From Selaginella tamariscina (taxonomy: Eukaryota; Streptophyta; Lycopodiopsida; Selaginellales; Selaginellaceae): a DNA stretch of 64,000 nucleotides. Below are positions 1-60,224 of the stretch, in pieces; the first letter of the stretch is position 1, and each line of letters opens with the position of its first letter. The stretch is taken from NCBI GenBank assembly GCA_003024785.1, contig PUQB01000201.1, positions 348,726 to 412,725 of the forward strand, written 5' to 3'. The translations under genes were made by a program, and so were the position numbers. A model generated the notes under the pieces. The model worked only from the letters and a program-made list of their open reading frames with translations. It was not told where the DNA came from and ran no database searches.

Positions 1-700
1 AACGCTACAACATTTAACCCTAAACTTGTAAATCCTATCATCCAACATCATTTCCTTATGGCTTATTGCAGTATGGGATGCCACTAGTGCAACTAACAAA
101 ATGATAGATGACTTTTTTGTGCGGTTAGAATTAATATGTGTGAGTCTCGACTATAGCTATTCTAATGTTTTTGGCACACTCTTTCAATTTCTGAACATTC
201 CTAAGTAAATTGAATGTGATTTGTAAAAAACTTGGGACCAAACCACCCTCTTAATCTCCCTAATAATGTCGTTGTGTTTCTTCAATAAGAGTTAGGACGA
301 TTGCTTCACTTGTGAATATTCTGTGTTGTAAAGCAATATCTACTGCGAATACACACTTACTCGATGAGTATTGAAATTTTCAAAATAAACATCTAATTGG
401 ATTCCCTCCATAAATGGGCTTTTATTTAGTTGAAGAAGAACTCTACGGTCGACATCATTAGTGAACATGTGAACGTCATAATCCACAAGCAGACATAACC
501 ACCCGAGGTTCTTGTCGTATTTGGTGTTCTTTGGATCCAAAAATGTGACATTGGATGGAACAAGGTATATATTTCGAACATTGTCTAATCTTGGTTCGCA
601 GCCTGCCCTTGGGTGTTTGATTGGTGAATTTAGTTTCCATTGTTTTGCTTGTCCACATGATGTGACAGACTATTTTGACAGCAACTATGATTGATCCAAT
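1..700 (-). pseudogene. Unidentified minus-strand coding relic (5' part, cut by window edge)
   Basis: The most protein-like stretch reads leftward from about 690 to 340 and includes the segments NVTFLDPKNTKYDKNLGWLC and LLVDYDVHMFTNDVDRRVLL. Downstream of about 330 the frame is lost to stops and shifts. The copy at 46,443-47,125 is nearly identical and shows that the reading continues to 44.4 kb. I do not recognise the family. It has the look of a decayed mobile-element gene, since it sits in a transposon nest and is multiply broken. Copy 1 has about 19 bases near 360-380 that are missing in copy 2. Confidence 0.45.
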
Positions 701-1224
701 ACACTTCTTATTTATTTTGAAATATGGCCAAATTGATTTTAGAATCCCCTAGCCCATCTCATCTCCTCCTCTTGTCTTTAATCTTACTTCAATTCCATAT
801 TTAAATACAAAAATGATAAGTTCTTCAAGCACATATCCGAGTATAGCAAATTTTATTTTAATTCTTACTCAGAATTTAATGACAACTCCATACTAATGGC
901 TGAATTAGTTCATTTGATCCAACTATTTATCTGTAGAATACTACACTATAAATACAATTCATATAAAAACGCACACACATTTATATAAACCCGAATATAC
1001 AAATACATTATTAAAACTTTACAAGGTATAATACATATTTTTCTTTAAAGTGCTCATACTAATTAGATGGGGAGGAATTATAATATACAAACAAACATGT
1101 ACTTATTTATATTAATACACTAGTACATTCAAATACACCCTTCTTTATCTCATAAAGAAGTGAATGAAATTAAGTGTCTAAAGCTCATATTTGTGATAGT
1201 GCAAAAAATTGGTATCATTTGGTT
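700..1224. other. AT-rich spacer with no visible gene
   Basis: Low-complexity AT-rich sequence between the coding relic and the retrotransposon. I see no open frame or RNA gene. The five bases just before the retrotransposon (1,220-1,224, TGGTT) are the left target-site duplication, one base different from the right-hand CGGTT. Confidence 0.6.
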
Positions 1225-2933
1225 TGTTAGAGTTTTAACCCAAAGGGCCAACACATGGCAACACGTGGCTGCCAGGTGGCCATTCGACATCATCACCCTG
1301 TGTGAGCAACACTAAGTTTCCCAGAACAACCTCAACGACCCTTAGGGTTAGACTCTAATGCCCAAGTGGACATGAGACTTCAGGGTTTAGCCTAAGTCTC
1401 CCTAGAATGTCTACCCCCAAAACCCTTGAGGGATAACCCTAGTTGACTTAGGGTCTTGCCCTAGAAGACCTAGACAGGCTCATGCCCCAACTCCCATTAA
1501 GGAGACGTGTGTTCCACACATACCCCCGTGACAAAGCTAAGGCATCGTCACTTACCCCTTGAGGAATCACCCTCATTCGGGAGTACAACCTCTTTAGGGT
1601 GACAAGGGGTACCCTGAACCACAACTAACCCCTAAGGGTTTGAGTGGCCAAGTCATACCTTAGACCTAGGGCTAATACTTAGTGAGGACACGAGTGTGCG
1701 CCGTAGGCGAACACGAGTGTTTTGCTAAGCAAACTCCCTAAGGCTAGGTTTGGGATAACCTTAAGCACATGACCTTGCGAGTGCCTCACGAAAGGGCTCC
1801 TGCTAACACGCTTAGGTTGTTCAACCCTTGAATTCCAAGGAGAACACTCCCCTAGCCAAGTGTGCCAAAGCACACCTAGTTATGAGACCTAACTTCCCTT
1901 GAGCGGATGCCCAAGGCTTAGCACCCTAGTGCAAGCACAAGCATGTCTGTTTGCTAAAGTATCCAACCCTTGGCGACAAGCCTATGACATAACCCCAAAG
2001 GGCGTGCCTCGAGCGTTGTACCATGTGACGTTTAGCCCAGTGTCACATCTCCATGTGACACTACCTTTCCCGATGTGGGTATCATGCCATAGCCCTTAGA
2101 TTCAAGAGTTGCACCAAGTGCCACAAATGTGACTTCTAAATGCCAACTCTAGAATCCCTCAATTAACCCTTAGGAACCAGGTAACGTGAACTTGTCAAAC
2201 AAGATCCCACGCCCGCAGTTGGACAAGGACACGGATGTGCCTTGCTTGGTTATGAGTGCTACACCTAGCTTGATGTGGATGAGGAGGCTGGAGACAAGCC
2301 TCAACCTCTGCCTCTTGGAACGTGCATTCCGACAAGACCTCCCAGGCATGAATTCGCCAATGTTGGTAAGCTACCCCGAAGGTGGGACGTACCCCTGGCA
2401 TCTGGAAGTTAGGGCGGCACAACAGAGGGTTGTACCTTAACGACACAAGTTAAAGTTTGCACCGGCAGAAGAGCAACGAACTCAGTCATGAACCCAGGAG
2501 CTCTCCTACTACATACTACTTTATTTATGTGACAGAGCCCCCCCCCCCCTATTTTCCTGTTTACAACAGTGGGCTAGCACTGAAATCTCATTCCCAAAGG
2601 GAACATACTTGGTGAGTTATCCATCGACCCCTAAACCCTAACCTGTCAAACCTGGGGGTATTTCTAAGCATATCTAACATGCCGAACTCACCGGAACTAG
2701 CCATTAATCCAACCGGGACATAGAAAACCAAGGTAAGAGTTTTCTAAATGGAAGTGCTAGCTTCACCTAGAGTTTCTTGTAAATACCTAATGACACCCGG
2801 CCGGACCATCACTAAATATCCAAGTGCACTAAGCGGGCCTGTTTCTTCTACACCTAGGGCTTATCAACATAGTACATTAGGTAACAACAATCAACATCCA
2901 AAGTAAAGAGGAGTCATAGTAAAAACTATGACA
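1225..2933 (-). repeat. LTR (3' LTR in element sense), copy 1
   Basis: Runs from TGTTAGAG to ATGACA on the plus strand. It contains many telomere-like pieces (CCCTAAACCCTAA at about 2,630; several AACCCTAG or CTTAGGG motifs at 1,330-1,660) and a poly-C run of 12 at 2,538-2,549. Short open frames in it are not genes. Confidence 0.92.
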
Positions 2934-5900
2934 CACTCCCCGCCTTTGAAAATGTCAACGTCCTTGTTGAAGTCCAACTCCAAGACTAGATAATGTTAGA
3001 GAAAACTAACCAAAACTAACATATCACTCTATGCGGAGTCAACCAAAAGTTCACATAATTTTTATTACCCCCCTTGCATTACGCGAAACCAAGTACTTCA
3101 GAACCGTCGTTCACTAAGTCGTAAACCTAGCTGCCGGAGGCACCACCTGCGACATGAAGTCACTTGGAAACCTTTTGCACGTCTGCAAAGTCTGTCACCC
3201 GACGCACACAACACAATGGTTAATTTCTTTACTTGACTAGAATTTATATTGGAGGCCTCTAGTTAGTGTTGTTGCCGACCCCTTGGTTAACAAGAAATAA
3301 ATGCTTGCTTTATTCCTTAATATCAAATGCTGTTGACGACCTCTGTCATCTAGCGCACAACAAGCACTTTTCAAATGCTTGACCAAAACACCTTCGCATT
3401 TCTTTGATTTTCCAATGATCCCACATGTCCACATGTTACGATATTATAGCTTACATCTATGCATCCCTCGGTGTTTCTCATTACCCCTTTTCACGAGGGT
3501 CCGCTACTATACCTATCTCTCGTTAGTATATAGCTACGCCAGACTAAGTATGAGACTTTTATCGGAATCAAGCTCTTTTCCGATACAAGAGTACAATTCG
3601 TAAAACCTGTTCTTTGTAAACATGTTAATCTGGCCAGAGGCAATCACAGAGGCGCATGGTTGTACACATGTATACAACAAGGTCTTGCCAACTTGCCAAC
3701 TACCATCCACTTGGTGTGTTATTAACATAAATTTATTCCGGATAGGAATCAACTTCAGTCAAATCCGCGACCAAGTGTGATAGCCTTACCATTCGTCCTT
3801 CGCAACCATCTTTGTACTCTTTCATAACACCGACCAGTTCAAGGACCAGATAAGCTAACATACCTTTCTTACAAACTAATGTGAAAGCCAGGAAATTCAA
3901 CCCATCTCTAGTGCCTCAATCGACAATCTTTAGATAACACGTCTCTTAATTGTCACTCTCATTGTACTCATTCCCCAAAGAGCACATCATACTAGATGCC
4001 GTTCAATACTTCCTAACTCTTTATCTCACTAAGTTCAAAATACCAAATTTTAAGACTTAGTTTCCACGATAAGAGTCTTTCTGAATTCAGAATACTGCAC
4101 GCCTCCATAACATTATATTTATTTCCAACTCTTAAATTGATTTCATAAATGTTTCTCAACACTATACCAAAGTATAGCATTTTCACTAATTGAAGCAGCT
4201 AGTGTTTTTGATAAACATCTTTTAAAACTAATCTTATTCTATAAATCGTCGCAATTTCGATATTGATACTCTCGAATGGATAATGATCGTTTTAACGTTT
4301 AAATCCTAAGCTTATCAACTAGTTGTTATACTAGTGGATATAAACTAACAATCATATCAATTTATCGAAATGCTATAACTACATTATAGATATGGTCTTA
4401 GTTTACATGAACCGAACTTCAATTTTGAGACGAAAATATAATGTTACGACAGTATTTCGAGGAACTTTATTCAAAGACTAAGAAGAATCATGAACTAGTG
4501 TTTGGTTCATCTAACTGATTTAGTAAATATCAACCTTTACATAAATGTTATCATAAGTTCCGTGATTGACAAAATTGATTTTAAACCATGATTTCACTAT
4601 TCATGAATAGTAAAACCAAAATTTAGGGTTAAATATATATTATTAATATAAATAATTAATAAATTAATACTATATATTCATAATATTAAAGAATATAAGA
4701 TTTAATTTATGTATTTTATATAATTAAAGATCATCAAAATCATTAAATATATTGAGTTAAATTTTTTTGATCTAAGCCATCATGGTTTTTTTAGTGGTCT
4801 AGGTCATGGTCTAAGTCAATTTTGTCAATCTATGCGATCATAACACTGAAGTGTTATATCAACTTCATGTTTCGTCATACCTTATAATTCAATAGATCTC
4901 CCCAAAAATGAATAAGATATTTAGTTCAGTATGTCGAACTAAGATACATTATTCATTCTAGACACCTAGTAATCCAGAAAGTACTACATTGCCCCTCAAG
5001 CAATGTATTGAGAAATGCTTCATTTCTCAACTAACTTGAAAACACGTTTCAAGTTATAACACTAAGGTAGTGCCTTACCAAAGTGTTGAACTCAAGTCTG
5101 CTTGAGTCTTTATATTTCATGATTATGGCCACCTCATGTGATCATAACCAAGTCTTAATATTGAGCGCTCCAAACTCAATATTAAAAAGATACCATATTA
5201 TACTTTGACAAGTCATTTATAATCAATCTTAAAAGACTGTCATAAATACTTTCAAAGTTTAAGATATGAATATCTCAATGAATGAGGTGATAGGAAACCT
5301 CATATTTTTGTATCGAATATTGGACTATACGTTATGGACATTGTATCACAATCATCAAGAAGGGAGACCATCTTCTTGAATTAATCCCGCTACTTCACTT
5401 TCAAGAATATTGAACCAAGGTCAAGAAACACCATCAAACCTTGAGATAGAACCAAAGACTAACCCAAGGAATACAATCAAACCTTGAGTCAAGAATAGTT
5501 CTAATTTTCAATATTCTAAAGAACTGAAGATACCTACTTTATAAGTTCTTTGAGTCCCCACATTTGCGACCATGATGCAAAGTCAAGAAACCGTCTTTTG
5601 AATAATCGTATTCGACTCTAAAATGAAATCGTTATTGAAAAGCAATACCAACTTCTGATCCTCATCGAATACCGACTCTTTGAGGAGGCACATGCACTTA
5701 AACCTCCAATGGAAATCCGACTGTTACTAGCTCATTTGTAATTCTCAACATAAGTTATCAAACTTAGCAAGTTTCCTTACTTAGTTGATAAACAAACTGG
5801 AGAACCTCAAATCATGCTCTTCTTAACCAAGGAATCACCCTTGTTCAAGAGCTTATGCCCACATTGCAAACAACGTTACAGATTTTAAGATTAAAAAGTT

Positions 5901-7050
5901 AATAATGAAAAATGCACAAGTGTGTGCCGAACGCCTTCACTATGCAAGTCCTTCATTACTCAGTAAGCTGAAAATGTAAACGTATGTTTCCAGCATTTCT
6001 TTGTGATAGATCACGCCATCCATCCAAAAAGCTGCATTGATAGGGATGCAACATTAAATCCGTCTACTGCCAAAATCTATTATTCTATCTCATTCTTATG
6101 ATCCCATATGAGATAATTTCATAATCAAGTTAACCGAGCTAGCTAACTTGAATACAGAGTGCGCGCTTACAACTAACTAAGGTTTCAAGTTGTACATGTT
6201 CAAATTAGGTAACTTGAACTTAGTAAACTATTTTACCTAATGTTACTTGTAGCTAGCATCATCAAAATATTACGAACATTGGACAATATTTTGATTACAT
6301 TAGATGTTCAAACCAACTGCTTAACATATTCATCATATGTTAATATTTGACATTTCGTTGTATTACAAGTTCAACACCATAATCTGCTTCTAGAGTTACA
6401 CTCTCAAAAACATGCACTATAATGAGAGCTTATTTACACTTTTATGTCAAAATGTAGTGTTCACTCTTATGTTTGAATATGCCCCTTCTTCCGAAGTCAA
6501 AGACGCACTTTCGAACATAAGTCTTTCCCCATTTGAACACTATTGCTGGAAATGATATTGAATCTTGACCTAAGCCAAAACTCAATGGACACTATATGTT
6601 TTCAAATCATGTGTTATCCCAAATTCAGACACCTTAAAGAAAAAAGAAAAATTTTCAATAATGTGTAAACTTAGCATATCACATAATCCACTTCACAAGA
6701 CTTAGTTTGTAAGCCAGAACAAACTAACACGCCACGTCTTGTGGAAGTATATGGTAAAATAACCTGAACATTCATAAGATAAAGTAACCTAGAGAAAACG
6801 TAACCTGGCATGCAACTTGGAAGTTGCCTTCCAAGTACTACTTTTAACATTGGTGTCCATAACCCAAACCCACTTATGAAGTAAGTGTACTCTGAAGAGT
6901 TATAAATCTCAGGACCAACTCCCCACGCAGAATTCAGACGTTAGCCGAAAGTGATAAAGTACTTCAAGAACTTAGAACTAACTAAACCCTGAAACACCTT
7001 ACAACTTTAGGTAGTCCTACTGACCGTAGAGAATAGGCTCCGCTACCAAT
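2934..7050 (-). other. Retrotransposon internal region without open reading frames
   Basis: About 4.1 kb of AT-rich sequence between the LTRs. No frame on either strand reaches meaningful length, and I find no reverse transcriptase, integrase or protease motif. The ends carry the polypurine tract (left) and primer-binding site (right) for minus-strand transcription. The copy-2 equivalent is 49,337-53,437. Confidence 0.85.
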
Positions 7051-8759
7051 TGTCAGAGTTTTAACCCAAAGGGCCAACACATGGCAACACGTGGCTGCCA
7101 GGTGGCCATTCGACATCATCACCATGTGTGAGCAACACTAAGTTTCCCAGAACAACCTCAACAACCCCTAGGGTTAGACTCTAATGCCCAAGTGGACATG
7201 AGACTTCAGGGTTTAGCCTAAGTCTCCCTAGAATGTCTACCCCCAAAACCCTTGAGGGATAACCCTAGTTGACTTAGGGTCTTGCCCTAGAAGACCTAGA
7301 CAGGCTCATGCCCCAACCCCATCAAGGAGACGTGTGTTCCACACATACCCCGTGACAAAGCTAAGGCATCATCACTTACCCCTTGAGGAATCACCCTCAT
7401 CCGGAGTACAACCCCTTTAGGGTGACAAGGGGTACCCTGAACCACGACTAACCCCTAAGGGTTTGAGTGGCCAAGTCATACCCTAAACCTAGGGCTAATA
7501 CTTAGTGAGGACACGTGTGCGCCGTAGGCGGACACAAGTGTTTTGCTAAGCAAACTCCCTAAGGCTAGGTTTGGGATAACCTTAAGCACATGACCTTGCG
7601 AGTGCCTCACGAAAGGGCTCCTGCTAACACGCTTAGGTTGTTCAACCCTTGAATTCCAAGGAGAACACTCCCCTAGCCAAGTGTGCCAAAGCACACCTAG
7701 TTATGAAGACCTAACTTCCCTTGAGCGGATGCCCAAGGCTTAGCACCCTAGTGCAAACACAAGCATGTCTGTTTGCTAAAGTATCCAACCCCTTGGCGAC
7801 AAGCCTATGACATAACCCCAAAGGGCGTGCCTCGAGCGTTGTACCATGTGACGTTTAGCCCAGTGTCACATCTCCATGTGACACTACCTTTCCCGATGTG
7901 GGCTATCATGCCATAGCCCTTAGATTCAAGAGTTGCACCAAGTGCCACAAATGTGGCTTCTAAATGCCAACTCTAGAATCCCTCAATGAACCCTTAGGAA
8001 CCAGGTAACGTGAACTTGTCAAACAAGATCCCACTCCCAGTTGGACAAGGACACGGATGTGCCTTGCTTGGTTATGAGTGCTACACCTAGCTTGATGTGG
8101 AGGAGAAGGCTGGAGACAAGCCTCAACCTCTGCCTCTTGGAACGTGCATTCTGACAAGACCTCCCATGCATGAATTCGCCAACGTTAAGGGTAAGCTACC
8201 CCGAAGGTGGGACGTACCCCTGGCATCTGGAAGTTAGGGCAGCACAACAGAGGGTTGTACCTTAACGACACAAGCTAAAGCTTGCACCGGCAGAAGAGCA
8301 ACGAACTCAGTCATGAACCCAGGAGCTCTCCTACTACATACTACTTTATTTATGTGATAGACCCCCCCCCCCCCCCTGTTTTCCTGTTTACAACAGTGGG
8401 CTAGTACTGAAATCTCATTCCCAAAGGGAACATACTTGGTGAGTTATCCATCGACCCCTAAACCCTAACCTGTCAAACCTGGGGGTATTTCTAAGCATAT
8501 CTAACATGCCGAACTCACCGGAACTAGCCATTAATCCAACCGGACATAGAAAACCAAGGTAAGAGTTTTCTAAATGGAAGTGCTAGCTTCACCTAGAGTT
8601 TCTTGCAAATACCTAATGACACTCGGCCGGACCATCACTAGATATCCAAGTGCACTAAGCGGGCCTGTTTCTTCTACACCTAGGGCTTATCAACATAGTA
8701 CATTAGGTAACAACAATCAACGTCCAAAGTAAAGAGGAGTCATAGTAAAAACAATGACA
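7051..8759 (-). repeat. LTR (5' LTR in element sense), copy 1
   Basis: Starts TGTCAGAG and ends AATGACA. It differs from the left LTR at scattered sites, for example GTGATAGAC instead of GTGACAGAG before the poly-C run, CTAGTACTG instead of CTAGCACTG, and ACTAGATATCC instead of ACTAAATATCC. All of these variants are shared with the LTR at 53,438-55,149. Its poly-C run is 15. Confidence 0.92.
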
Positions 8760-8910
8760 CGGTTCTAGAACCATTACAAATGTGAGCTTTGGACAGTTTT
8801 ACATAGTTTACTGGCTTTTACTCAAAATATTACGATAAGATTATAGAAGTAAATAAAATGAGATAAAGAACTTATATATACTAATACACATGTACATTCA
8901 CATAAAGGAT

Positions 8911-9782
8911 GGCAAGATTAATCCCACTAAGTGGGGGCCATTAATCTCGCCCATCATTTTAAGAGGTAGGGAAGGGGTGGCAGGATTAATCCTGCCACCA
9001 CTTCCTTACTTCCTAGATTGTGTTTTTGAAAGAGAGATATATAAAAATTATAATATATAGATAGATACATATATATAAATACATGTGTGTGTGGGAGCTA
9101 AAGGTAAAGGAGTTGTTGGCGGGATTAATTTTGCCCAAACTCTCTCATATGGATAAGGGTGGCGAGATTACTCCCTCCACCCATGCCATGCTTGGTGGTC
9201 GAGATTAATCCCGTCCTTCACTCTTTAAGACATAAAGGGTGGCAGGATTAATTCAACCACCCCTTTCATGCTTGGTGGATGGGATTAATCTTCCCACCAC
9301 CTCCACGCCTCTTTGAACGGTTGGCGAGATTAATCTTGCCCGCTAGGCATAGCATCGGTCGTGGGATTAATTTCACTCACCAACCTTATTCATATGAGAG
9401 AGTTGTGGACAAGATTAATCCCATTCACCATGCATGGCAAGGGTGACGGGATTAATTTTGCCACCATTTATGTCTCAAAGAGTGTGGAACGAGATTAATC
9501 CCGCCCACCAAGCATGGTATGGGTGTCGGATTAATCTTACCCACCCACCATGTAAGGGGTGGGGTGTTAATCCCACGCATTAGATATGGATGTGGTGATG
9601 GGATTAATCTCGCCACCTCCTTTTCTGTCTCAAAGAGTGATAAGTGAGATTAATCCCGCCCACCAGGCAGGGCATGGGTGGCGGGATTAATCCCTCCACC
9701 CTTTCATTCTGCACTATAGTGGGCGGGATTAATCCCACCCACCTAGCATGGGAAGGGGCAGCTGGGTTAATCCTATCAATGG
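8911..9782. repeat. Palindrome array A (about 20 cores)
   Basis: About twenty copies of a palindrome with consensus GGCGGGATTAATCCCGCC. ATTAAT centres lie near 8,917, 8,940, 8,985, 9,124, 9,167, 9,204, 9,247, 9,284, 9,329, 9,366, 9,414, 9,451, 9,494, 9,530, 9,566, 9,603, 9,649, 9,686, 9,728 and 9,766. From 9,204 on, spacing mostly alternates between about 37 and 43-48 bp, with two recurring spacer types (one with CATGG, one with TCTCAAAGAGTG). The core at 8,977-8,998 is a perfect 22-bp palindrome. Function is unknown. It could be the subterminal region of a mobile element or a set of dyad protein-binding sites. Confidence 0.88.
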
Positions 9783-10310
9783 GATACAAATACACACGTA
9801 CATATACATATAGTTGTGTGTGTGACAGAGAGAGATAAAGAAATTACATATATAATAAAAGTGTGTTTGATAAGAGATATAAAGTAATTTCTAAGAAAGA
9901 GAGATAAATAAATAAAATTATATGTGTGCATGCGTGTGCCAGAGATAAATTAAATAAAATTATACAGATGCACACACATATATATGTATATGTATATATA
10001 TAGGAGTGTGTATGTGTGCGAGAGATAGATACAAAAAATTAAATTATACAAATACACACACACACATATATATGTATATATAGGAGTGTGCGTGTGTGTG
10101 CCAAAGATAAATAAATTTATATAAATACACACACACACACACACATATATATATACAGGAGTGTGCGTGTGTGCGAGAGATAGATAAAAAAAAATTATTA
10201 TATAGATACACACATATAAATGTATATGTATATACAAATAAATAATAAATTATCTATCTCACGCAAATATATATGTATATGCATATACGGGAGTGTGCAT
10301 GTGAGAGAGA
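9783..10310. repeat. Minisatellite of about 78 bp rich in CA/TA/GT
   Basis: At least four units, each containing an (AC)n-(AT)n run followed by AGGAGTGTG(C/T)GTGTGTG and a GAGAGATAGATA-like tail. Unit anchors lie near 10,001, 10,080, 10,157 and 10,288. Open frames across it are repeat artefacts. Confidence 0.75.
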
Positions 10311-11388
10311 GATTTCACCTGTGTGAATGTGCCTTCAAACCCTACTACACTGCCATGCCTTTTTAGATCGCCATGCCTTGCGAGAGTGGATCTTTCGATT
10401 TATTGCACTGCCACTCTCATATTCCACCGTTGCCACGTCTTTCTCCTCCGCCACCTTAAAACCCTAAGAATATACCTTAAAAGGAATAAAATATATATAC
10501 CATAAACAAATATTCTTTCATTATATTATCATAATCTCTAATCTGTGTGTGGGCATATTACATACACCCCAAAAATATAGATCATGCAGGGATTTAACAT
10601 ATGTGTGTCTACAAGAGTGTTAAGTTTTCATGTGCAACAATACATACATACACACATATAATATACACATAGACATACATACATAGTACTTAATATATGT
10701 GAATGTGTCATGTCAGTACATATGGATTGTGCATGTGTGTGTGTGAGAGAGAGAGAGTGTTGAAAAATTAATTTCACACACATTGCATACATTAGTACAC
10801 ATATATACATACACACATAAACATACATATATATTACATGTGTGAATTCAATGTGTTACATACACACAGACTAAGTACATATGGATCATACATGCATTTA
10901 ACATGATGTTTTCGATAAAGAAGTAGTATATCCCCCCAATTTGATAGTTAAGTAGCTAAACATAAAATCACAAATCATTCTAGTGATTTTGTAAATTATT
11001 TTAAAAAATGTAAATTATAATTTGCTCATACTTTAATATTGTATGCATATATTTGAATTTTATCCTGTTTTAACTTAAAATGACATAGTGATATTAAAAC
11101 ACATTTGAAAGCAATCATATCACATATATATATATATATAATGTATAGTATAAAATCTTTAAGACATAGAAATTAAATCCATGCACATTTTTCTAATTAT
11201 TTAATATAAATTTACTCTAAACCCTAAACATAGATATGTGGATGTTTTTAATAATGTGTATTAAATCTATAAATATTTTGTGAATTATTAATAATTTAGG
11301 TTTAGTGTTACATGTGTAAAGATAAGTGCTTAAAAATTTCTTAGGTTAAGGGTTTTAAGTGAAATGCAAGTTTAAATTTGAAATTAAC
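10311..11388. other. Non-coding spacer with CA/TA microsatellites
   Basis: 10,630-10,860 is rich in ACACATA or TACATACATA runs. The rest is AT-rich unique-looking sequence with a TA run near 11,122-11,142. I find no supported gene. Confidence 0.6.
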
Positions 11389-11665
11389 AAGGGATAAATA
11401 CATTGGATTTTGTTGGATTGTCAATTAGGTTCATAATAACTAAGGGAAATGCATCTAATGAGGGATAAATACTTTGGATTTGATTGGATCGTCAATTAAG
11501 CCCGTGATAACTAAGGGAAATGCATTTAAAGAAGGATAAATATCTTGGATTTTGTTGGATCCTCAATTAAGCACGTGATAACTAAGGAAGATCGAGGAAT
11601 AAATACCTTAGATTTTGTTGGATCCTCAATTAAGTCCTGATAACCAAAGGAGATGCATCATTTGC
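11389..11665. repeat. Tandem repeat, about 72-bp unit, four copies
   Basis: Units start at GGGATAAATAC-like sequence near 11,390, 11,462, 11,534 and 11,596. Each continues with TTGGATTTTGTTGGATC, then TCAATTAAG, then TGATAACTAAGG. Period is 72, 72 and 62 bp, with growing divergence in the last unit. The repeat is conserved in copy 2 at about 57,781-58,055. Confidence 0.85.
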
Positions 11666-11689
11666 CATAATGCCTAAACCTTAAACCTT

Positions 11690-12255
11690 GTAAACCCCAC
11701 AGTGTAAAGATAAATGCTTGGTTTGGGGTATAAACCATAAACCCTAAACACAAAGCTATATGTTAGATCCCTAAATATTATTTATATCGTGATCCACTCA
11801 TATATGTATGTGCATATGTGTCTTTATGAGTTTAGGGTTTAAACCCTAAACACTAAGCCCCACAATTGTTTTGTGTATATATGTAAGTCTTAGTGTAGAG
11901 TGTGTTTATCAATAAATGCTTAGTTTGGGTTTTAAACCCTAAACCCTAAACACAAAGCTAGATGCTAGACCCATAAACATTTAATTATTTGTATTGTAAA
12001 TTCACTCATTGGTGTGTGTGCCTATGTGTCTTATAGGTTCTTTTAATGCATATTGTGGGATGCTTTTAATGGGTGTGCTATGTGCATGAAGAAGTTTATA
12101 AATATTTTATATATGGTTTGGGATTTAAACCCTAAACTATGAATACAAAATTAGATCCTAGACCCATGAACATTTATTTATACTCATTGGCATGTGTATG
12201 TGTGTGCATATGTGTATGTACATGTGTGTGCATGTATATGTAATTTCTTTTATTG
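11690..12255. repeat. Degenerate tandem repeat carrying plant telomere-like CCCTAAA motifs
   Basis: Three to four degenerate units of roughly 200 bp. Each has a TTTAAACCCTAAACCCTAAA-like core, then ACAAAGCTAGATG, then AGACCCATAAACAT, then a TGTGTGTGCATATGTG-like stretch. Cores lie near 11,735, 11,835, 11,935 and 12,125. The telomere motif is never present in more than about two perfect copies, so this is interstitial repeat, not a telomere. The copy-2 equivalent is about 58,083-58,640. Confidence 0.75.
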
Positions 12256-13198
12256 TGTTTATATATGTGCCAAAGAAATATTGAATTAAAGTGAAAATAA
12301 TATTAATATACACACTATGAACATATTTTAAATTATACATAATAATATATCATTTTATCTAATATATAGTTTTAATAATATATATTAATATAATATTGAT
12401 AATAAGGTTTAATATTGAAATATTCTTGAAATAAGAAGAAAATAATTGAGAAAATTCCATTAATATAAACAAATGTAGAATAATTACTCGAATAATTAAG
12501 AATATATACTAATTTAATTTTGATAATAAGGTTTAATATTAAAATATTCTTGGAATATTAAGAAAATAATTAAGAATATCCCATTAATATAACAAATGTA
12601 GAATAATTACTCAAAAAATTAAGAAAATAATATCAATATACACACTATGAATATATTTTAAATGATACATAATAATATATCATTTTATCTATTGTATAAG
12701 TATATATTAAAATATATACTTAGTAATATATATTGGAATAATAAAAATGTAGAATAATTACTAAAATTTCGTATAATTAAACAGTTTGAATCACTTGCTA
12801 ATGCTAAATACATTAAATGCAATTTATAAAAATCATTAGAATCAGAGAATATATATGTTAAAGAGTTAGTTATTTGTGTCAACTCATTTTAAGTTTTATT
12901 TTCTTATTAAAAATTTGAAATTTGACAAAAGTATTGTTAGTCTAATATATAAATTTAAAAATACTTTTAATTTCTCACTCAAATTCAAATCTTTGAAAGG
13001 GTTTCTTTCTTTTTATAATTTTCTTTATTCAGATTTTCTTTTTCTTTGATATTGATCACCTCAAAACCGATGCTAAATTGGGTGCTATCATTTCTAAAAA
13101 AGTATGACACTCTCTGTTATGTTTACAAGTATTATATATAAATTTAGAAATGCTTATAAAGATTCACTCTCTTACATTCTCTCTTAAAATTAAAATTT
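12256..13198. repeat. AT-rich nested tandem repeats
   Basis: A unit of about 123 bp (GATAATAAGGTTTAATATT) recurs at about 12,398 and 12,521. It lies inside a larger 330-bp duplication: a segment with ACACTATGAA at about 12,301 recurs at 12,631. The remainder to 13,198 is AT-rich with no gene seen. Confidence 0.65.
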
Positions 13199-13768
13199 AG
13201 GGTTTAAGAATCCATTAGGATTGCATTATAATTTATTAGGGATTTATCATGTTTACGCATCTTCTTTACTTAAAATTCTCAGTTAGCCGAGATCTTAAAG
13301 AGTTCACGATGGAGTGGCATGATTAATCCGACCATTTCTTTTCCGCCTTTTAGAATGGTCAGCAGGATTAATTTCGCCCACAACTCTCTAAAACGGGGAA
13401 GGGGTAGCAGGATTAATTCAGCTAATGCTTCTCCGCCTCTTAGAAAAGGTGACGGGATTAATCCTGCCCACAACTTTCTAAAACGATGAAGAGCTAGTGA
13501 AATTAATTTTAAAGAGTTGTGAGCGGGATTAATTCCGCCACCACCCCTTCGCTGTTTTAAAGAGTTGTGGGCAGGATTTATCCCATCGATTAGTTTAACA
13601 AACAAAAAAGCATTGGTAGGATTAATCCCATCACCCCATCGAGATTTTTATGAAATCTTGGTTAATCAAAAATTCTAATTAAAAGGGATATGTGAATGAG
13701 AAAAATCCTTAATGGATTCTAATGCAATCCTAATGGATTTTAGTGCAATCCTAATGGATCCTAAACCC
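13199..13768. mobile_element. Candidate small fold-back element bounded by inverted repeats
   Basis: The left end AGGGTTTAAGAATCCATTAG (continuing GATTGCAT) is matched in reverse complement at 13,743-13,768, and a second, tandem inverted match lies at about 13,702-13,740. Between them lies the first half of palindrome array B. Size is about 570 bp with no open frame. It could be a MITE-like unit or simply an ancient inverted duplication. No clear target-site duplication is visible. Confidence 0.5.
13316..13640. repeat. Palindrome array B, first half
   Basis: Cores of the same palindrome as array A. ATTAAT centres lie at 13,322, 13,367, 13,412, 13,457 and 13,502 (exactly 45 bp apart), then less regular ones near 13,528, 13,568 and 13,621. 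Spacers carry AAAACG or TTTTAGA pieces. Confidence 0.85.
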
Positions 13769-13829
13769 CTAAAGTAGTTTCATCAAATGGCACATCACAA
13801 CAAGCTAATATGTAATCACGTCCACCATT

Positions 13830-14310
13830 TTAAGGAGTGAATTAACCCAGCCAATGCTTCTCTGTCTCCTAAATGGTGGGCGGGCTTAATCTCGCCCCCA
13901 ATTCTAAGAGGCGAGGAAGCATTGGTGGGATTAATCTCACCACCTCTTCTCCATCGGAAAGAGTTGTGGGCAGGATTAATCTCGCCACCTCTTCACCGTT
14001 GGAGAGAATTATGAGTGGGATTAATCCCGCTGACCTTTTTCCCTCGGAGAGAGCTATGAGCAGAATTAATCCCACCAATCTCTCCCTCGTCGGAGAGAGT
14101 TGTGGACATGATTAATCCCGCCACTTCTTCCCTATCGACAACAGTTGTGGTCAGGATTAATCTCGCCGACCTCTTCCCTGTCGGAGAGAGTTGTGGGTGG
14201 GATTAATCCCGCCACCTCTTCCTCGTCGGAGAGAGTTGTGGGCGAGATTAATCCTGCCCACCATTCTAGGAAGCAGGAAGGGGTGGTAGGATTAATCTTA
14301 CCACTACTTG
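13830..14310. repeat. Palindrome array B, second half (45-bp unit, 11 cores)
   Basis: Centres lie at about 13,841, 13,885, 13,930, 13,975, 14,020, 14,065, 14,111, 14,156, 14,202, 14,247 and 14,291, spaced 44-46 bp. The spacer is ACCTCTTCCCTGTCGGAGAG followed by AGTTGTG. Because 45 is a multiple of three, open frames run through on both strands and yield a repetitive GINPA/VGLI-type peptide. I regard these as artefacts. Some core variants keep symmetry, for example the core at 14,283-14,304, where two base pairs are changed on both arms. Confidence 0.9.
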
Positions 14311-14453
14311 TATTAATCAAGCATGAGAATCTATACTTATATATAAATATATATTATTGCACACATATATATTAAGCACCCTCGATTTAGATTTTATTGC
14401 ATATTGCATAAACAAATATCATAAATGACACAATTATTTATTTGCAGGATAAT

Positions 14454-16531
14454 ATGTTTAATACTGGAGATAAAGTATATCTTTTTTGGAATAACAAGAT
14501 AATTGGCACTGGAACTATGGAAGTTCGAGATGATAATGCATCATGTCACAATATTACTCAAGGATCTTGTGTATATTATGGAATGTGGATGAAGTCAAGG
14601 TTAACATATAGAATGTAGAGTCACAAACAAATATTAGTGCGAATTCACAAGATGATGGCTTACATACTATGATGGATGAGGTAATTCTCTTTCTTTATGA
14701 GATTGAGGTTGGGAGAGGCATCATCTCAATTGTTAATTCAATGGAAGCTGTATCTGAAAATAAACTAGGGGCCTACTTCATGGGTGTAGTTGTGACAGAG
14801 GTTTCATTTAATGGCACATTGCATTCTAGATCCCTCGTGAGGTCGTGAACATTTGAATTAAAATGGCCAGAGGTTGTTGAATTTCAATAATAACAACCCG
14901 AAAGGGCAACCCATGTTTGAAGAGGTTCTTGCATTGGTCCTATAGTAAGAAAAAGGTGATTCATGGGCTACAAATTTACCCTAACAAATTTCGGCAAGAG
15001 GGTCAAGATGAATCTCACATCTTCGGAAAGCGTTGCTAGCATCTTCCTGATTGACTTCTGCAAGAAGAAGTGTTGTCAAATGGCGAGCCGGAATGACCCA
15101 ATGTAGACATGTCTTTCGTATGCTCATTCAAAAGCAAAGGCATGAATTTGTATATGCTGCACTAATTGGGTGTATTGATGGAATGGCATTGGACACAGGT
15201 TATCAGAGTATGTCCATGGTATTTAATAAGGTGGCACTCTACTTCAAAGTTTGGTACACTATATATGGAATACTAAAGACCACATTTTACTGTCGGAGAG
15301 ATATGTACTAACATACTTGTCAATGCTTGTTGCCAAAGGTGTGTTTAAAACAATCACGCTTAGTTTTCTTATGGTTGGTCACACTCATGAAGATATTGAT
15401 GCATTCTTCAACAAGATCTCCAACTTTACAAAAAAGAACAAGTGCACTTACCTTAGCACATATAATGAATCATTTTGAAAATTGCATCTCCAAAAATAAT
15501 TGTGCTTTGCTCGTGACTAAGGTGTTAGACTTCAAAAAGTTTCTTGAGTATATTAAAGAGGAGAGTGATTATTTAACTAGTCAGCTTGTGCCACTATAAT
15601 TATTTTTCTCCACAAGAGATGATATACCTATTATGCAGTACAAGTTAGGGCCATCAAAGCAGGAGTGGTTATTAAAAGAGGGCTTAATGCTCTTCAAAAG
15701 TGGAGATGATGGAAAGCCACTTTTCCTAGAAGGACAATTAGACCCTATTTTATTGAGTGCCCAACTCAAAGAACAAAAGTTTATTATTGACGGTATCAAA
15801 AAATATGTGATATGGGTTCAAAAATCAATGCCAAAGAATTTTGATAAAGCAACTAGTTACTAAGCATGTGGCTAACTATTGGGAGACTGTTATTCGAGAG
15901 TTAGAAGAGCCTACTGTCACAAGTACAAAATTATACCAATCGATTATCTAAGCAAAGTGCCGGCACCAGGATTCTATGGAAAATGAATGTACAATGATGC
16001 CTTGGGGAATGAGGAGTATGTACAACAGATGATGTGGTTTTGCCCAAGAGATTCAGGGTGTTTCACGTGGCCAAACGGAAAAATTCTTCAGTCAAGAATT
16101 CCAACACCACCAACGGTTTGGCCCGCGCTCATGGAAACGAAGTTGACAAGTGAGGAGGTCAGAGAACTATAGGATGCAGGCTTTGTTTTGGAAGGTTTAT
16201 AGGGGATGGCAGGAAGAGTAGATGATGGTCAGAAGGACAAAACACCATCACCACCACATGGAGCTGGATTTACAATGGGCCCATGGTCCGGACTCCAACA
16301 AAAATGTCTAAGGAACAAGAGAAGAATTTCCACAAGGCCAAGACGTTTTTAGGTCGAGTGAGAAATGTTGAAATGACAGTTAGAGGACGGAAGAAGGCTT
16401 TCGTTGTGTTGGTAGGAAATGACTCTGCAAAGGTGACTATCAGTACTTCAGTTGTTCTACCTTTCAGAAGAGCAAAAATTGGAGCCCATGTGTACACATG
16501 TATTTCGTCTACAGCCGTGTATTTGGCTTAA
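14454..16531 (+). pseudogene. DUF7869-like mobile-element gene, broken (copy 1)
   Basis: A series of plus-strand coding pieces in at least two alternating frames. 14,454-14,618 encodes MFNTGDKVYLFWNNKIIGTG and more, directly after a possible splice acceptor (TTGCAG). At 15,100-15,290 there is a segment with TGYQSMSMVFNKVALYFK. At 15,290-15,475 there is YVLTYLSMLVAKGVFKTITL, then SFLMVGHTHEDIDAFFNKIS. Further pieces run 15,480-15,863 and 15,987-16,531. The GHTHxDIDxxF motif (15,376-15,408) is what I know from DUF7869-type proteins abundant in mobile elements of seed-free plants and some animals; assignment is by motif memory only. Several frameshifts and stops make it non-functional as read. 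Confidence 0.6.
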
Positions 16532-16794
16532 ACCCAGACGTCACATACTTTCTACAAAGGTGATCGCTCAGTGAAATGGAGGTCCACCGTTTGTTGGTGA
16601 ATTGCAGTAGAGTCCATGACCCGTGCTACAAGGATAAATGATATATAAAAATGCTTTGTTTGAATAGTAACTTATTGAACTTTTTTATAAAGTATTAAAA
16701 AAAAAAATTTAAAATTTAAAAATGATTTATTTGTTGGTCAACAAATATTAAGCCAGTCAGCATATTAAAAAAATTTATATTAAAAAATATTCTT

Positions 16795-16820
16795 GAGAAT
16801 ATTCTAGAATATGCTAGAAT
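16795..16820. promoter_or_regulatory. Heat-shock-element-like GAA/TTC array
   Basis: GAA at 16,797, TTC at 16,802, GAA at 16,807, TGC (one mismatch to TTC) at 16,812 and GAA at 16,817 sit on an exact 5-bp grid. This is the nGAAnnTTCnnGAAn arrangement bound by heat-shock factors. It lies between the DUF7869-like relic and the truncated P450 exon. The sequence is also a short AT-rich repeat (CTAGAATAT recurs to 16,855), so a chance origin is possible. Confidence 0.35.
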
Positions 16821-16891
16821 ATACCTGGATATCCACAAATATACTAGAATATTTCAAAGCCTCCCGAGCCGCAGCCTCCTTTTGGCCGAGA

Positions 16892-17316
16892 CCCTACTTG
16901 TGTATGCAACAAGCCAAGACTGTAAATTTGGCAAGTATTTCATCCCCAAAGGAACAAGGGCAATAGTGAATGCATATGCGATCGGGAGAGATGAGAACAC
17001 ATGGAAGGATCCTCTCAAGTTTGACCCAGAAAGGTTTATGCAGGGTGACATAGATGTTCAGGGCCAGCATTTCCAGGTACTCCCATTTGGGACTGGGAGA
17101 CGAGGTTGCCCTGGGACTCAGCTTGGTACGACCATGGTGCAATTTATGTTGGCAAACTTGTTACATGGCTTCGATTGGGAGATGCCCAATGGGATGAGTT
17201 TTGAGGACATTGATATGAACGACGGTTTTGGATTAACTCTTTCCAAAAATGTTCCTTTGAAGGTTATCCCTGTTGCACGCTTAAACCCACGAGCCTATAG
17301 ATTAGATAAGGCTTAA
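16892..17316 (+). pseudogene. Cytochrome P450 last-exon fragment, 5'-truncated (copy 1)
   Basis: Open to the stop at 17,316 and equivalent to the C-terminal 140 residues of P450-A. It begins abruptly at PLLVYATS-equivalent sequence directly after transposon-derived DNA. It has the FDPERF motif and a complete haem-binding loop FGTGRRGCPG with the Cys ligand. The N-terminal anchor, I-helix (AGGTDTS) and K-helix ExxR are all missing, so it cannot form a P450. The 3' flank (17,317 onward) is homologous to that of P450-A. The truncation at the mobile-element edge suggests loss of the 5' part by insertion or recombination. Confidence 0.9.
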
Positions 17317-20300
17317 TGGATGAATCCCTGTCGTCCTTGGTTAATAAACTAGACTACATTATATTAATGATGTTATTAATATTAAATTTTATTATCAAGA
17401 TTTTAATTTCAAACTTAGAAATACATTTCATTAGTACATGTGGAATCTTGTTATTAAAAAATAAAGTGGTTTAACGTTTCGGCAAATTTCAAAAAGGTGG
17501 AATTACTTTACCCTCAGTAGGAAGACTCAAATGGTGCCTGCGTAGACTTTGCTAGAAACTGTAGAGGAACAGTACTTTAGTGACTTTTTAAATTTCACCC
17601 AGTGTAAACCTGTTGTTTAAGATGCTTCTTAAGAGTGCCACATGTGTTGGCATCAAATACAGACACAATAACGATTAAATGCCTTAATGAAACAGTCGTG
17701 TATAGAACACTTTCACAGTCTAGTCTTTCTTTTTGAATTTAATTGTTGACTAAGCGTATCACCTAATAAATTAATGATTCATATTATAAAAAAATTTAAT
17801 GATTGAGATTAAACTATATCATTAATTAGATCCAATAATTATGTTGCATTATCACCAACTTAACCATTAATAAGTTCATAAGTTATATTGTTTTTGATAT
17901 ATCTTTATTAGTTTATTTTTCTTTCTTTATTATTATTATTATGTTTTAACTTTTTTATTTTATCTTTTTATTGTATTCTTATTTTCAGTGCCTTTTAATA
18001 ATGTTAATGCTCCCAATATTTCTAACATGATGAAATTAATTATAGTTTAAATAATAAATTATTAGTTTTTACAATTTTGTATTTAAAGTAAGATTAATTA
18101 AAGATGCTCAACTTTATAATAAGTGTGAACATGTCATGATTGATAATCATGATTATAAATATGGTATTACATAAAAATGTAAACACTATGATAATACATA
18201 ATCAATCATGTATTAAAATGTCATCGGAAAGAGCTATAGTTAAAACATACATTAAATATTATAATATGATAATTAATTGATATAGCTTTTATCATAGTAT
18301 ATGTGGTATAAGTGTAATTAAAAAATAAGTTGGCGTGGGGACATAGAGTTACACGTCCATAAGTTTTAGTGTAATAGAAAGATGTACAAACAAGATGTTT
18401 TTAATTATAGTACTAAATAAAAATAGAGATACAGTTATTAATATTATATGTCAATATATTATTTTAAATATAATTATTTTTTAGATAAATGAGCTAGTTA
18501 TGATACTGAGTGATTTATACAACTTAGTTATAAACATTACATAATAAAACTATTTTATTAATTTTAAAGATTCTGTATAGAATTAGCATGTCAAATAATA
18601 AAAAATTATCACATAGATGTGAAATTACAAAGGTAATGTATAAGTCATATTTTAATTCTATAGAATCAACATATCAAGTAATAAAAAAAATTGTTACCTA
18701 AAGGTGATATATAAGTCATAGTTTTAAGAATATATATAATGAAAAAAGTTTATTCAAAATCAATAGGAGAGGTTTAATATTTTTTCTTGAACATATAAAT
18801 TTTACAACAATGAAATTCTTCTAGTGTAGTAAAATAAATATTATTTTAATTTTAATTTAAAATAAAGACTTATTAACTTAAAGTGTATAATAAATATATT
18901 ATGGTTATATTTTATATCATGATACTTTTATATATGAGATTACTATTTAATTATTTTATTAAATAATTTTAATATTTTTTAATTAATAAATTATTACTTA
19001 ATTAATATTTTAAACCTCAAAATTTAACTGTTCAGGGTGGGCTTGAAGTTAAATTTTGAAAAGGAAGGTTGAATTGTGAATACTAACCCATATCAGTTAA
19101 TCTAGTTTTATACCTAAAAGAATATATATATGTATCTGAGTGCGCGTGTGTGTGAAGTGCAGGTGTCATACAAAACCACAGGCACCTCAAGAATCCGCTA
19201 GACCTGAAATCTTGGTACACTGGAATGTCGCCTTTGAAACAACCTTCTTTAATTTTCCCATCTAATCCGACATTGATCGCGGCAAGAAGTGTAGATTGTG
19301 TATGTATGCACCTGCTTAGAGATCCTACTTATCTGCAGAAGAAAATGCCAGGGTTCGTTAGATCAATAAAAATATTCTATATTTAAATGTTGGCTTTTCA
19401 AATTTAAACATTAGAATAGAAAATGCATAGCTGAATAGTATGAATTTATTTATAAAATGCTAATCGTTTTAATTTATATATTAATAAAAATTTAATAATA
19501 TATAAATAATATTAATAAATTATTAATATTATTTTTATATATTGTTTTACATTGAAGAGGTACTAGATAAATTCGGAAACACAATTTTATGAACAAGAAT
19601 ATTCGTCCAAAGATATATAAAAATGCATGTAAATATGTGCAAAAGAAATATCATATGCTTCTGTTTAAGCTTAACATTATTAAAATGTATTGATTGGAAT
19701 TTTTATTTATTTATCTTTATCGTTATATTCGTTATATCGCTCATCTTCAATGTGTTTGTTTACTCTACGTGAATACCTAATGTATAGTATGTAATACACA
19801 TAAATAATGCATCCAATCCTACAGTAAAGTTGCATATGTACTCAATTATATAGTTATATAGTGTAAATATTTGATCAATTATAAGTTGTACAGTAACAAT
19901 GGTGGATTAATTATAACATAAAGCATTGAAATGTATTTAAAATTAAAGCCTAACACATTTAAACACATTAATCTTATTAAAATGTTATTGCCACGCTAGA
20001 TCACATGAAGATATTATATGAATATAATCATATATTAAAATAAAAAATTTCTAATAATGTTAAAAACCAAAATTATTATATTTGTTAGAACTTCATGCCT
20101 AGAACAAAACGGAAAAAATACAAATGATATTGCAACACAAGGTCTTTACAGGTTATATGGTTAAGAAATAAGTCACAATCAAGTATACAATTTCCAGTAA
20201 TTCTTTGTCCCACTTGTAGTGCCACAGAAGTCATAATAAGTATATATCCTGCCGCTGGTGACATTAACACACGTCATTAGGTGTGTTTATTCATTCATTC

Positions 20301-30170: not shown

Positions 30171-30190
30171 AGGGTATATAAGTTGAGACT
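30171..30190 (+). promoter_or_regulatory. Putative TATA box of P450-A
   Basis: GGGTATATAAGTTGAG lies about 46 bp before the ATG. P450-B has GGGTATATATGTTGAG in the matching place (39,096-39,112). Conservation between the two copies, in otherwise drifting upstream sequence, supports a core promoter. Confidence 0.55.
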
Positions 30191-30226
30191 TGAGTTAATT
30201 TCTATATAGTTTAGTTTCCGTGTAAG

Positions 30227-30585
30227 ATGGATAATATACTGCAATGGTGTATACTTACACTCTTCATTGCATACCTCATCTGGAGTCTAATTTCATACGA
30301 TCCTAAGGCGCCATTAGCACTTCCCATAATCGGGCATTTGCATTTACTGGGCAAATCTCCGCACCAGTCTCTGGCTAAACTCGCACAAAAGTACGGTCCC
30401 TGCATGTTTCTAAAGTTCGGATGGTATAAAACTTTGATTATTTCATCGCCAGAATGGGCAAAAGAAGCTCTCAAGACACATGATCTTGTCTTCTCATCCA
30501 GGCCGAATCTTACTGCCGTGGTATGTTCGTGTGTATGCAACATGCCCTGCATGTCTGTATGTAAGACTGCTTGCTTGTATTTCTG

Positions 30586-30616
<31 letters not shown>

Positions 30617-31948
30617 ATATTATGTCATATGCACCATCAAGGGTTAATGTGATACAGAGTGTATTTTCGTACAATCACAATGGAGTAATATGGTCACCGT
30701 ACGGAGAAACATGGGGAACCTGCGGAAGCTTTGCAATTTGGAACTGCTCTCACCTAAGCGTGTAGCGTTTTTCACTCCAGTGAGAGCTAGTGAGATGCAC
30801 TTAACCATGTCTAGACTGTTAGATTGCTCAGGAACTAAACAAGTCGTTAACCTCGCGGATATTCTCTCGGATCTCACTTTTTAACACCATGACCCAGATG
30901 ATCATGAGCACCAGCTATTCTGCAGGAAAAGATGAAGAGGTGTGTTTATGTGTCTCTGTTATTCTTTAATAAGTTGTTTCAGGCATGGACGTACAAGGTG
31001 TTTATTCGGAAATCATCGATTGCAATAGGAGAGGTTTTATTTGGGAGATTATGTTCCCTGGCTGGGATGGCTGGACTCAAAGAAGGTGTCTACGATGAAC
31101 TACTACCTAAAGCATATGGATCAGTACGTACAGAAGCAGATTGATATGCACCGCAGTAACCCCGAGAAGTTTAACGATTTCATAACGATCATGCTTGCTA
31201 ACAAACAAGTGTGCAACTCAGATGTTGCTATGAAATCTGTCATTCTGGTACTAGTATATATCTTTTCTTTTAATAGTACGTATAGAAGTATATTTTGATC
31301 TTACGTATTCCAGGACTTGCTTGCTGGAGGAACAGATACAAGCTCGGCAACTACGGAATGGGCAATCTCCGAGCTCTTGAAGAGCCCAGAAGCAATGAAA
31401 AAGGTGAAAGACGAGCTTGATACTATAGTTGGAAGAGAGCCATGGTCAGAGAGGAACACCTTGAGAATCTGAAGTACCTTGCAGCAGTAACGAAGGAGAC
31501 ACTGCGGTTGCATGCTCCAGGCCCTCTACTTGTGTATGCGACAAGCCAAGACTGTAAATTTGGCGAGTATTTCATCCCCAAAGGAACAAGGGCAATAGTG
31601 AATGCATATGCGATTGGGAGAGATGAGAACACATGGAAGGATCCTCTCAAGTTTGACCCAGAAAGGTTTACGCAGGGTGACGTAGATGTTCAGGGCCGGC
31701 ATTTCCAGGTACTCCCATTTGGGACTGGGAGGCGAGGTTGCCCTGGGACTCAGCTGGGAATGACCATGGTGCAGTTTATGTTGGCAAGCTTGTTACATGG
31801 CTTCGATTGGGAGATGCCTGATGGGATGAGTTTTGAGGACATTGATATGAACGACGGTTTCGGATTAACTCTTCCCAAAAATGTTCCTTCGAAGGTTATC
31901 CCTGTTGCACGCTTAAACCCACAAGCCTATAGATTAGATAAGGCTTAA
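30227..31948 (+). pseudogene. Cytochrome P450-A (A-type, CYP71 clan), four exons, four frameshifts
   Basis: By alignment to P450-B the exons are 30,227-30,520, 30,658-30,939, 30,983-31,247 and 31,314-31,948, giving about 491 residues if read through the shifts, which is normal length. Seen in order: N-terminal hydrophobic anchor (about residues 5-23), Pro-rich hinge PLALPIIGHLHLLG, WSPYGETW, PWLGWLD, I-helix AGGTDTSS, K-helix ETLR, FDPERF, haem loop FGTGRRGCPG. Such enzymes are ER-bound mono-oxygenases fed by NADPH-P450 reductase; the substrate cannot be told. Breaks: one base missing near 30,714, one extra T at about 30,878-30,882, one extra T at about 31,035-31,038, one base missing near 31,440. 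Two lie in T runs, so assembly error is a real alternative to pseudogenisation. Subfamily not assigned. Confidence 0.9.
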
Positions 31949-36915: not shown

Positions 36916-37326
36916 ATTTCAAAAAAGGTGGATTTACTTTAAGAAGACTTGCTAGGAACAGTACTTTTGAAACCCTTTTGGCACATTTCAACATCTTGTA
37001 ATATTTTTAAAGTCTGTGCAAGTAAGAAAAAAAGTTTAACTATGCGCTGTTACACTCATAATTAAAGAATAGTTTCAAACTTGGAACACAGGTCCAAGAC
37101 ATCTTATTCACACAAATGCTTTTGCATTTCCATTTAATTAATAAGTTACAAAGACCACTTGCATTTTTCAATTATAATATATACAATAAAATATATACAT
37201 GTATGCTAATGTTCTAAGTTTAAAATCAAAATCTTAATAACAAAATTAATAGTAGTAGTCTATTTATTCATAACAAAATTAATAAAAGTAGTCTCTTTAT
37301 TCATAATATATTCATCAGGGACAACA
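36916..37326. other. P450 3'-flank remnants between convergent genes
   Basis: Begins with GCAATTTCAAAAAAGGTGG, a piece of the conserved P450 3' flank, and ends at the P450-B stop codon. AT-rich; no gene. Confidence 0.6.
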
Positions 37327-39042: not shown

Positions 39043-39095
39043 CTTACACTGGGAACTGTAACTTAAAACAACACTATATAAAAATTAACTCAAGG

Positions 39096-39112
39096 GCTCA
39101 ACATATATACCC
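39096..39112 (-). promoter_or_regulatory. Putative TATA box of P450-B
   Basis: On the minus strand GGGTATATATGTTGAG lies about 60 bp before the ATG and matches the P450-A element. Confidence 0.5.
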
Positions 39113-55149: not shown

Positions 55150-55300
55150 CGGTTCTAGAACCATTACAAATGTGAGCTTTGGACAGTTTTACATAGTTTA
55201 CTGGCTTTTACTCAAAATATTACGATAAGATTATAGAAGTAAATAAAATGAGATAAAGAACTTATATATACTAATACACATGTACATTCACATAAAGGAT

Positions 55301-60160: not shown

Positions 60161-60224
60161 CTAAAGTAGTTTCATCAAATGGCACATCACAACAAGCTAA
60201 TATGTAATCACGTCCACCATTTTA

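Follow-up and report, generated by a model that had tools for sequence, protein, structure and literature searches.

VANDAL transposons are Mutator-like, and CACTA/En-Spm transposons, which have target-site duplications (TSDs) of 3 bp, carry many subterminal copies of a short site that is bound by the element-encoded TnpA. In VANDAL elements, an element protein, VANC, binds short motifs that lie in tandem repeats in non-coding parts of the element and induces loss of methylation; these motifs are found in introns and in regions upstream of the element genes, and their number varies between copies (PMC5735166; PMC10398659). Sola transposons are described as having 4-bp TSDs, short terminal inverted repeats (TIRs), a DDD transposase and, in some cases, more than 15 kb of sequence, and they are known from a moss (PMC10741241); the TSDs of Sola2 are described in PMC3627910. 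Here we analyse a stretch of 64,000 nucleotides from the lycophyte Selaginella tamariscina (contig PUQB01000201.1, referred to as the window), in which two arrays of an 18-bp palindrome flank an AT-rich spacer and the whole layout is present twice. These arrays belong to the interior of a large, highly repeated class II DNA transposon with TIRs, where they may act as control regions of its two divergent genes.

Within the window, the palindrome core GGCGGGATTAATCCCGCC is matched 40 times at up to three mismatches and not once in 100 dinucleotide shuffles. Twenty matches fall in copy 1 and 19 in copy 2, and a single stray lies at 45,894, within a degenerate coding relic of the left gene of the element. 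Exact cores are absent from the window, the best match having one mismatch. A relaxed finder, which favours sites with an intact ATTAAT centre, recovers 18 sites in the left array (array L) and 16 in the right array (array R) of each copy, or 34 per copy, with about 3.5 kb of spacer between the two arrays:

8,911-9,739, no strand: copy 1 array L, degenerate 18-bp palindromes, 18 sites by the relaxed finder
9,740-13,315, no strand: copy 1 AT-rich spacer with simple repeats, GC content 0.27
13,316-14,302, no strand: copy 1 array R, 16 sites by the relaxed finder
55,301-56,125, no strand: copy 2 array L, by core matches and the relaxed finder
59,709-60,692, no strand: copy 2 array R, by core matches and the relaxed finder

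The core scan thus confirms a preliminary description of this DNA, which had reported two palindrome arrays flanking 3.5 kb, with a second copy present. Its count of about forty cores for copy 1 was slightly high, since the relaxed finder gives 34 and the strict scan 20 (40 being the figure for the whole window). Symmetry of 22 bp or more, which it had attributed to some cores, is seen in a single site out of the 34 of copy 1, which is perfectly palindromic over 24 bp; the other 33 reach at most 12 bp when no mismatch is allowed. The further statement that nothing similar lies elsewhere besides copy 2 holds for the window except for the stray at 45,894, but the genome has tens of thousands more.

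A scan of the whole genome (300.7 Mb) at up to two mismatches places the core at 59,903 positions and the reversed control at none. Ten stretches of 10 kb were fetched around the first core places listed, and one of these (L012, with 2,500 N and one array) was set aside. Six of the remaining nine contain a left and a right array with a few kb between them (L009, L013, L015, L016, L017 and L018), two contain a single array each (L010 and L011) and one contains two right-type arrays in opposite orientations (L014). Across these nine stretches, with the sequence shared by the overlapping L015 and L016 counted once, 154 of the 261 core spacings below 200 bp are 44-46 bp, and in this loose sense the arrays are phased, as had been claimed. 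Site number and spacing differ between element copies.

Alignment of the copies in contigs C1 and C3 reveals sharp ends, beyond which the flanks are unrelated. The element ends in a 27-bp TIR, ATGCAMGTTGTAACTAAARTGGGCATG; both ends carry the 21-bp GTTGTAACTAAARTGGGCATG, preceded in most ends by ATGCA and then C or A, and the ends read ATGCAMGTTG. The palindrome core is absent from the TIR. The 21-bp inner part is found at 4,674 genome sites (2,383 forward and 2,291 reverse; control 0), and among 100 listed places a forward and a reverse site lie next to each other within 25 kb in 23 cases, 18 of them spanning 13.8-15.4 kb. In a sample of 20 elements (18 of 20 fetched TIR pairs plus the copies in C1 and C3), the four bases just outside ATGCA/TGCAT are identical in ten, while 2,000 shuffles gave 0.58 on average and never more than 4. 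This offset was picked by scanning offsets 0-11 on both sides; the next-best 4-base offset outside the TIR gives 2 of 20. TGCA itself, which matches in 14 of 20, was rejected as the duplicated target because it reads the same on either strand and both ends contain it, and the independent matches lie outside the TIR. In addition, one element (C80:563737-578788; L068, L069, L090 and L091) has inserted into a second member of the family, about 250 bp inward of the end of the latter, and the empty site of this insertion is intact in the C3 copy, where ATAA is present once. With TIRs at both ends of copies at unrelated sites and 4-bp TSDs outside them, this is a class II TIR DNA transposon. These observations bear out the suggestion that the arrays belong to a mobile element: the core recurs far beyond the window, and the paired layout is found at other loci with common outer boundaries and short target duplications, rather than being restricted to this locus or to arrays that share no boundary. 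We further note one locus (C2, about 144.9-156.3 kb; L015:1888-7182 with L016:1474-6839) at which two consecutive array-spacer-array units lie between TIRs 22 kb apart, reflecting either a nested insertion or a tandemly duplicated centre.

The type copy T (contig C46), a young one, is 14,601 bp long, has the TSD CGTT and is organised as left gene (minus strand), array L, AT-rich spacer, array R and right gene (plus strand). About 5.2 kb of sequence precedes array L (5,224-6,615; 22 sites, 13 exact), and about 3.7 kb follows array R (10,170-10,926; 15 sites, 5 exact). The four full-length copies examined (T, U, C1 and C3) all carry the two arrays at equivalent positions, and the open frames on the two sides are divergent, their 5' sides facing the arrays. 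Short telomere-type CCCTAAA/TTTAGGG motifs also occur in the spacer, 11 in T and nine in window copy 1 (9,783-13,315).

The left part of the element carries several overlapping open frames on the minus strand, which probably represent one spliced gene. The outermost contains a NIF/FCP1-like phosphatase domain (PF03031; E 5.1e-9 in T and 3.8e-8 in C3) in a Pfam scan that covered 10 open reading frames (ORFs) of C3 and 10 of T. A 302-residue left frame has 5,719 candidate matches, and the best 130, which were scored, are all 100% identical and free of stops, which suggests recent activity or spread. On the right, the C80 copy has a 699-codon open frame on the plus strand, one stop and then 392 codons in the same frame. 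The stop lies inside a 54-bp stretch that begins GTAAAT and ends TTCTAG, occurs at the same place in T and C3 and can be read as a putative intron; the domain DUF7869 spans this stretch (E 2.5e-27 in the C3 ORFs, two pieces in T). Three Asp motifs in the right protein (DKMDHSK, MDNCAGENKNR and GHTHEDID, a triad chosen by eye) suggest a DDD catalytic centre, and the protein is probably the transposase. At least 300 DUF7869 matches are found in this genome, and 14 control genomes give none, although at least 11 of the controls are prokaryotic and have little bearing on eukaryotes; two of the highest-scoring places (L092 and L093) belong to the same family. The literature searched contains no mention of DUF7869 (PF25273), a domain of unknown function that here gains a likely transposase role.

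In its 4-bp TSD, short TIRs, size and DDD-like triad, the element agrees with what is described for Sola, and we provisionally classify it as Sola-like. The likeness is one of description, with the three Asp motifs picked by eye, so that we do not assign the element to the superfamily as a member, and the parts of the Sola descriptions consulted do not mention paired palindrome arrays or a NIF-phosphatase gene. The element shares with CACTA/En-Spm the many copies of one short site, and one right-gene ORF of C3 resembles Transposase_23 (TNP1/EN/SPM) at a level below threshold (E 0.14; 12.4 bits, the cut-off being 21). However, its ends read ATGCAMGTTG and not CACTA, its TSD is 4 and not 3 bp and its arrays are central, which places it outside that group. 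Among the literature matches listed, no title on Sola or Selaginella concerns this element, the 18-base core was not found, and GGGATTAATCCC and GGATTAATCC appear in one and six papers, respectively, all with unrelated titles.

Since T contains 35 cores at up to two mismatches, the 59,903 cores correspond to about 1,700 element equivalents, and the 4,674 TIR ends allow at most about 2,300 elements. If most copies are near full length, at 14.6 kb each this one transposon family would account for 8-10% of the genome. To our knowledge, large coding DNA transposons seldom reach thousands of copies, and the plant DNA elements that do are usually short and non-autonomous.

The preliminary description had likened the arrays to subterminal repeats of large DNA transposons or to the ends of fold-back elements, a proposal that does not survive the identification of the TIRs: the arrays lie 3.7-5.2 kb from the ends and are therefore not the ends themselves, they are internal, between divergent genes, and the TIR is free of the core. 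A fold-back element, whose ends would consist of long terminal inverted arrays, is rejected on the same internal position and on TIRs of 27 bp. Coding repeats were considered because the core reads GGINPA on both strands; core spacings leave remainders of 0, 1 and 2 modulo three in 98, 80 and 83 of 261 cases, are thus not multiples of three and argue against a coding role. Nor are the arrays satellite DNA without a mobile-element context, as they lie within a TIR-bounded element and their paired layout recurs.

We favour, with a probability of about 0.55, a reading in which the arrays are paired internal control regions of this large transposon, providing sites for a dimeric protein that controls both genes; that a dimeric protein might bind them had also been suggested in the preliminary description. 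Such a dimer would bind the 18-bp palindromes, many at once, and so form a multi-site platform at two divergent promoters; the bound arrays would then drive or protect transcription on both sides, most likely by opposing silencing by the host, in an element that appears to have spread recently. Candidates for the binder are the left-gene product, the N-terminal half of the right protein or a host factor. This proposed action resembles that of the motif repeats to which VANC anti-silencing proteins are targeted in VANDAL elements, and the VANC system may be regarded as the nearest working analogue. Both have tandem arrays of a short motif in non-coding DNA beside genes, the target role being putative here. 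The two differ in that the VANC21 motif, YAGTATTAY, has nine bases and is not an 18-bp palindrome, that binding and methylation loss have been shown for VANC and are putative here, and that Pfam reveals no Mutator-like transposase in the scanned ORFs of C3 and T. The paired palindrome arrays offer a clear, testable handle on gene control, and perhaps on escape from silencing, outside the Mutator lineage.

A role in binding is consistent with the upkeep of the core. The core is identical in T and in the diverged subfamily represented in the window, while most array-L linkers differ (as judged by eye), and we conclude that the cores are maintained, most likely as protein-binding sites. The 34 copy-1 sites carry 113 substitutions, of which 95 are C>T or G>A and 51 fall on the four CpG positions, a tally made with the finder that favours an intact centre; this pattern is compatible with decay of methylated cytosines. 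When the old copy is aligned to T, CpG transitions are rarer in the arrays (27/124) than outside them (81/226; Fisher p 0.008), and non-CpG transitions are equal (49/252 and 306/1,551, respectively). Protection of the arrays from CpG loss as whole regions was rejected, as the linkers are not CpG-rich and the CpG excess belongs to the core.

Several observations weigh against the control-region reading. The contrast between core and linkers is clear for array L only, and by eye, the array-R linkers being partly alike in T and the window, and homogenisation instead of selection could account for the upkeep of the core. The CpG comparison is weak because the array alignment may pair non-homologous repeats, and the high CpG of the young arrays is that of the core, with linkers at 0.54-0.79. 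As regards the proteins, the helix-turn-helix in the right protein matches Psq only below threshold (E 0.14 in C3 and 0.096 in T), the left protein has no recognised DNA-binding domain, and a MULE domain was not found by Pfam among the 10 C3 and 10 T ORFs. Finally, ten of the 20 elements have no exact TSD at an offset that was itself chosen after the offset scan; these ten may have mutated or recombined.

A more specific proposal, which we hold only tentatively and consider unlikely, is that the element has independently evolved an anti-silencing or self-tagging system outside the Mutator lineage, in which the left protein, perhaps with a highly diverged clamp-like domain beside its phosphatase-like one, loads on the arrays and spreads so that both promoters stay open. 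If true, this loading would account for the high numbers of a 14-15 kb element. Bacterial ParB-parS is similar in its clustered palindromic sites, and a ParB-like SGQH motif is seen by eye in the left protein, but the ParB_N domain (PF02195) has no match in the genome. Kinship with ParB/parS is rejected, being unsupported by Pfam, NCBIfam, PHROGs, phage records, PDB sequences and the genome-wide PF02195 search: Pfam and NCBIfam give no match at all for the left-protein region, a PDB profile search finds no ParB, and a weak match to one ParB-like PHROG family (E 0.1) is absent from a 7-row rescan of the same region. The main text of a ParB-fold survey contains neither 'transpos' nor 'plant' (PMC12704722).

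The possibility that the arrays serve transposition itself, as transposase-binding enhancers set far inward of the ends and not as gene control, strikes us as similarly doubtful. A need for several transposase sites, internal or subterminal, is common among TIR transposons, and the retention of both arrays in all four full-length copies would suit such a requirement. On the other hand, the arrays are 3.7-5.2 kb from ends whose TIRs carry no core, and the L093 copy, which may have moved in its present state, retains sequence of the left end and of the right gene but lacks the greater part of array L and of the left gene. Somewhat less probable still is that the arrays are enhancers for host transcription factors, tying expression to cell state through E2F/DP-like (GGCGGG) or GGATTA-type sites: the half-sites seem to resemble E2F and GARP/homeodomain-type motifs and the arrays adjoin two divergent sets of open frames, but an 18-bp two-fold core is longer than one such site. 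We find it improbable that the arrays are functionless minisatellites hitchhiking in the transposon, for although site number and spacing vary between copies and the spacer holds other tandem repeats, subfamilies share the core while differing in most array-L linkers, and two arrays occupy the same two positions in the four full copies.

The two array pairs of the window are best described as decayed old copies of the element that were duplicated together with their neighbourhood. Window positions 1-17,616 match 46,443-64,000 at 98.7%, and the match runs on for 660 bases left of the window. Besides the arrays, the following parts, including a long terminal repeat (LTR) retrotransposon in each copy, were assigned:

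1-823, minus strand: copy 1 relic of the left gene (62-68% identical to a type-copy ORF by tblastn, stops present; extends beyond the window into L039)
1,225-8,759, no strand: copy 1 LTR retrotransposon, foreign to the element (LTRs 1,224-2,934 and 7,050-8,760 at 97%; TSD TGGTT/CGGTT)
14,301-15,933, plus strand: copy 1 right gene as a degenerate relic that takes in the DUF7869 region (tblastn with the C80 right-gene open frames; domain assigned from better-kept copies)
42,937-42,963, plus strand: copy 2 degenerate left TIR (21-bp part at 42,943-42,963 with 3 mismatches; outer 6 bp assumed)
42,980-43,858, minus strand: copy 2 left-gene relic, NIF/FCP1-like phosphatase part (tblastn; PF03031 in T)
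44,510-47,282, minus strand: copy 2 left-gene relic, remaining part (tblastn)
47,648-55,150, no strand: copy 2 LTR retrotransposon insertion, foreign to the element (TSD CGGTT/CGGTT)
60,738-62,367, plus strand: copy 2 degenerate relic of the right gene (tblastn)

Homology of copy 2 to T resumes at 42,980, with 78% DNA identity over 42,980-47,428 and about 70-87% in the aligned parts overall, and most of the right gene is retained in this copy. The left part of copy 1 is cut off outside the window. A TIR scan and the alignment to T did not find the last 1 kb or so of the element and its right TIR in copy 2, and the right TIR was found in neither window copy. To the right of the right-gene alignment end at 15,933, coding-like sequence is observed at 16,040-16,530, with a 101-codon frame (16,226-16,531) that has no Pfam match; the old subfamily may have had a different right end from that of the young copies.

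The LTR retrotransposon is about 7.5 kb long, with LTRs of about 1.7 kb at 96-97%, and lies between the left gene and array L in both copies; element homology in copy 1 resumes after it at 8,762. Its presence at the same site in both copies indicates that the insertion is older than the duplication. An inverted relative of this retrotransposon (L039:3966-7341; 89-95% to window 3,540-7,196 and 49,937-53,583) lies just left of the window and abuts the left truncation of copy 1. The duplicated element is also surrounded by direct and inverted copies of cytochrome P450 gene fragments (Pfam p450; 16,894-18,206, 30,172-32,868, 37,184-39,112 and 63,279-64,000), which form a locally expanded P450 cluster.

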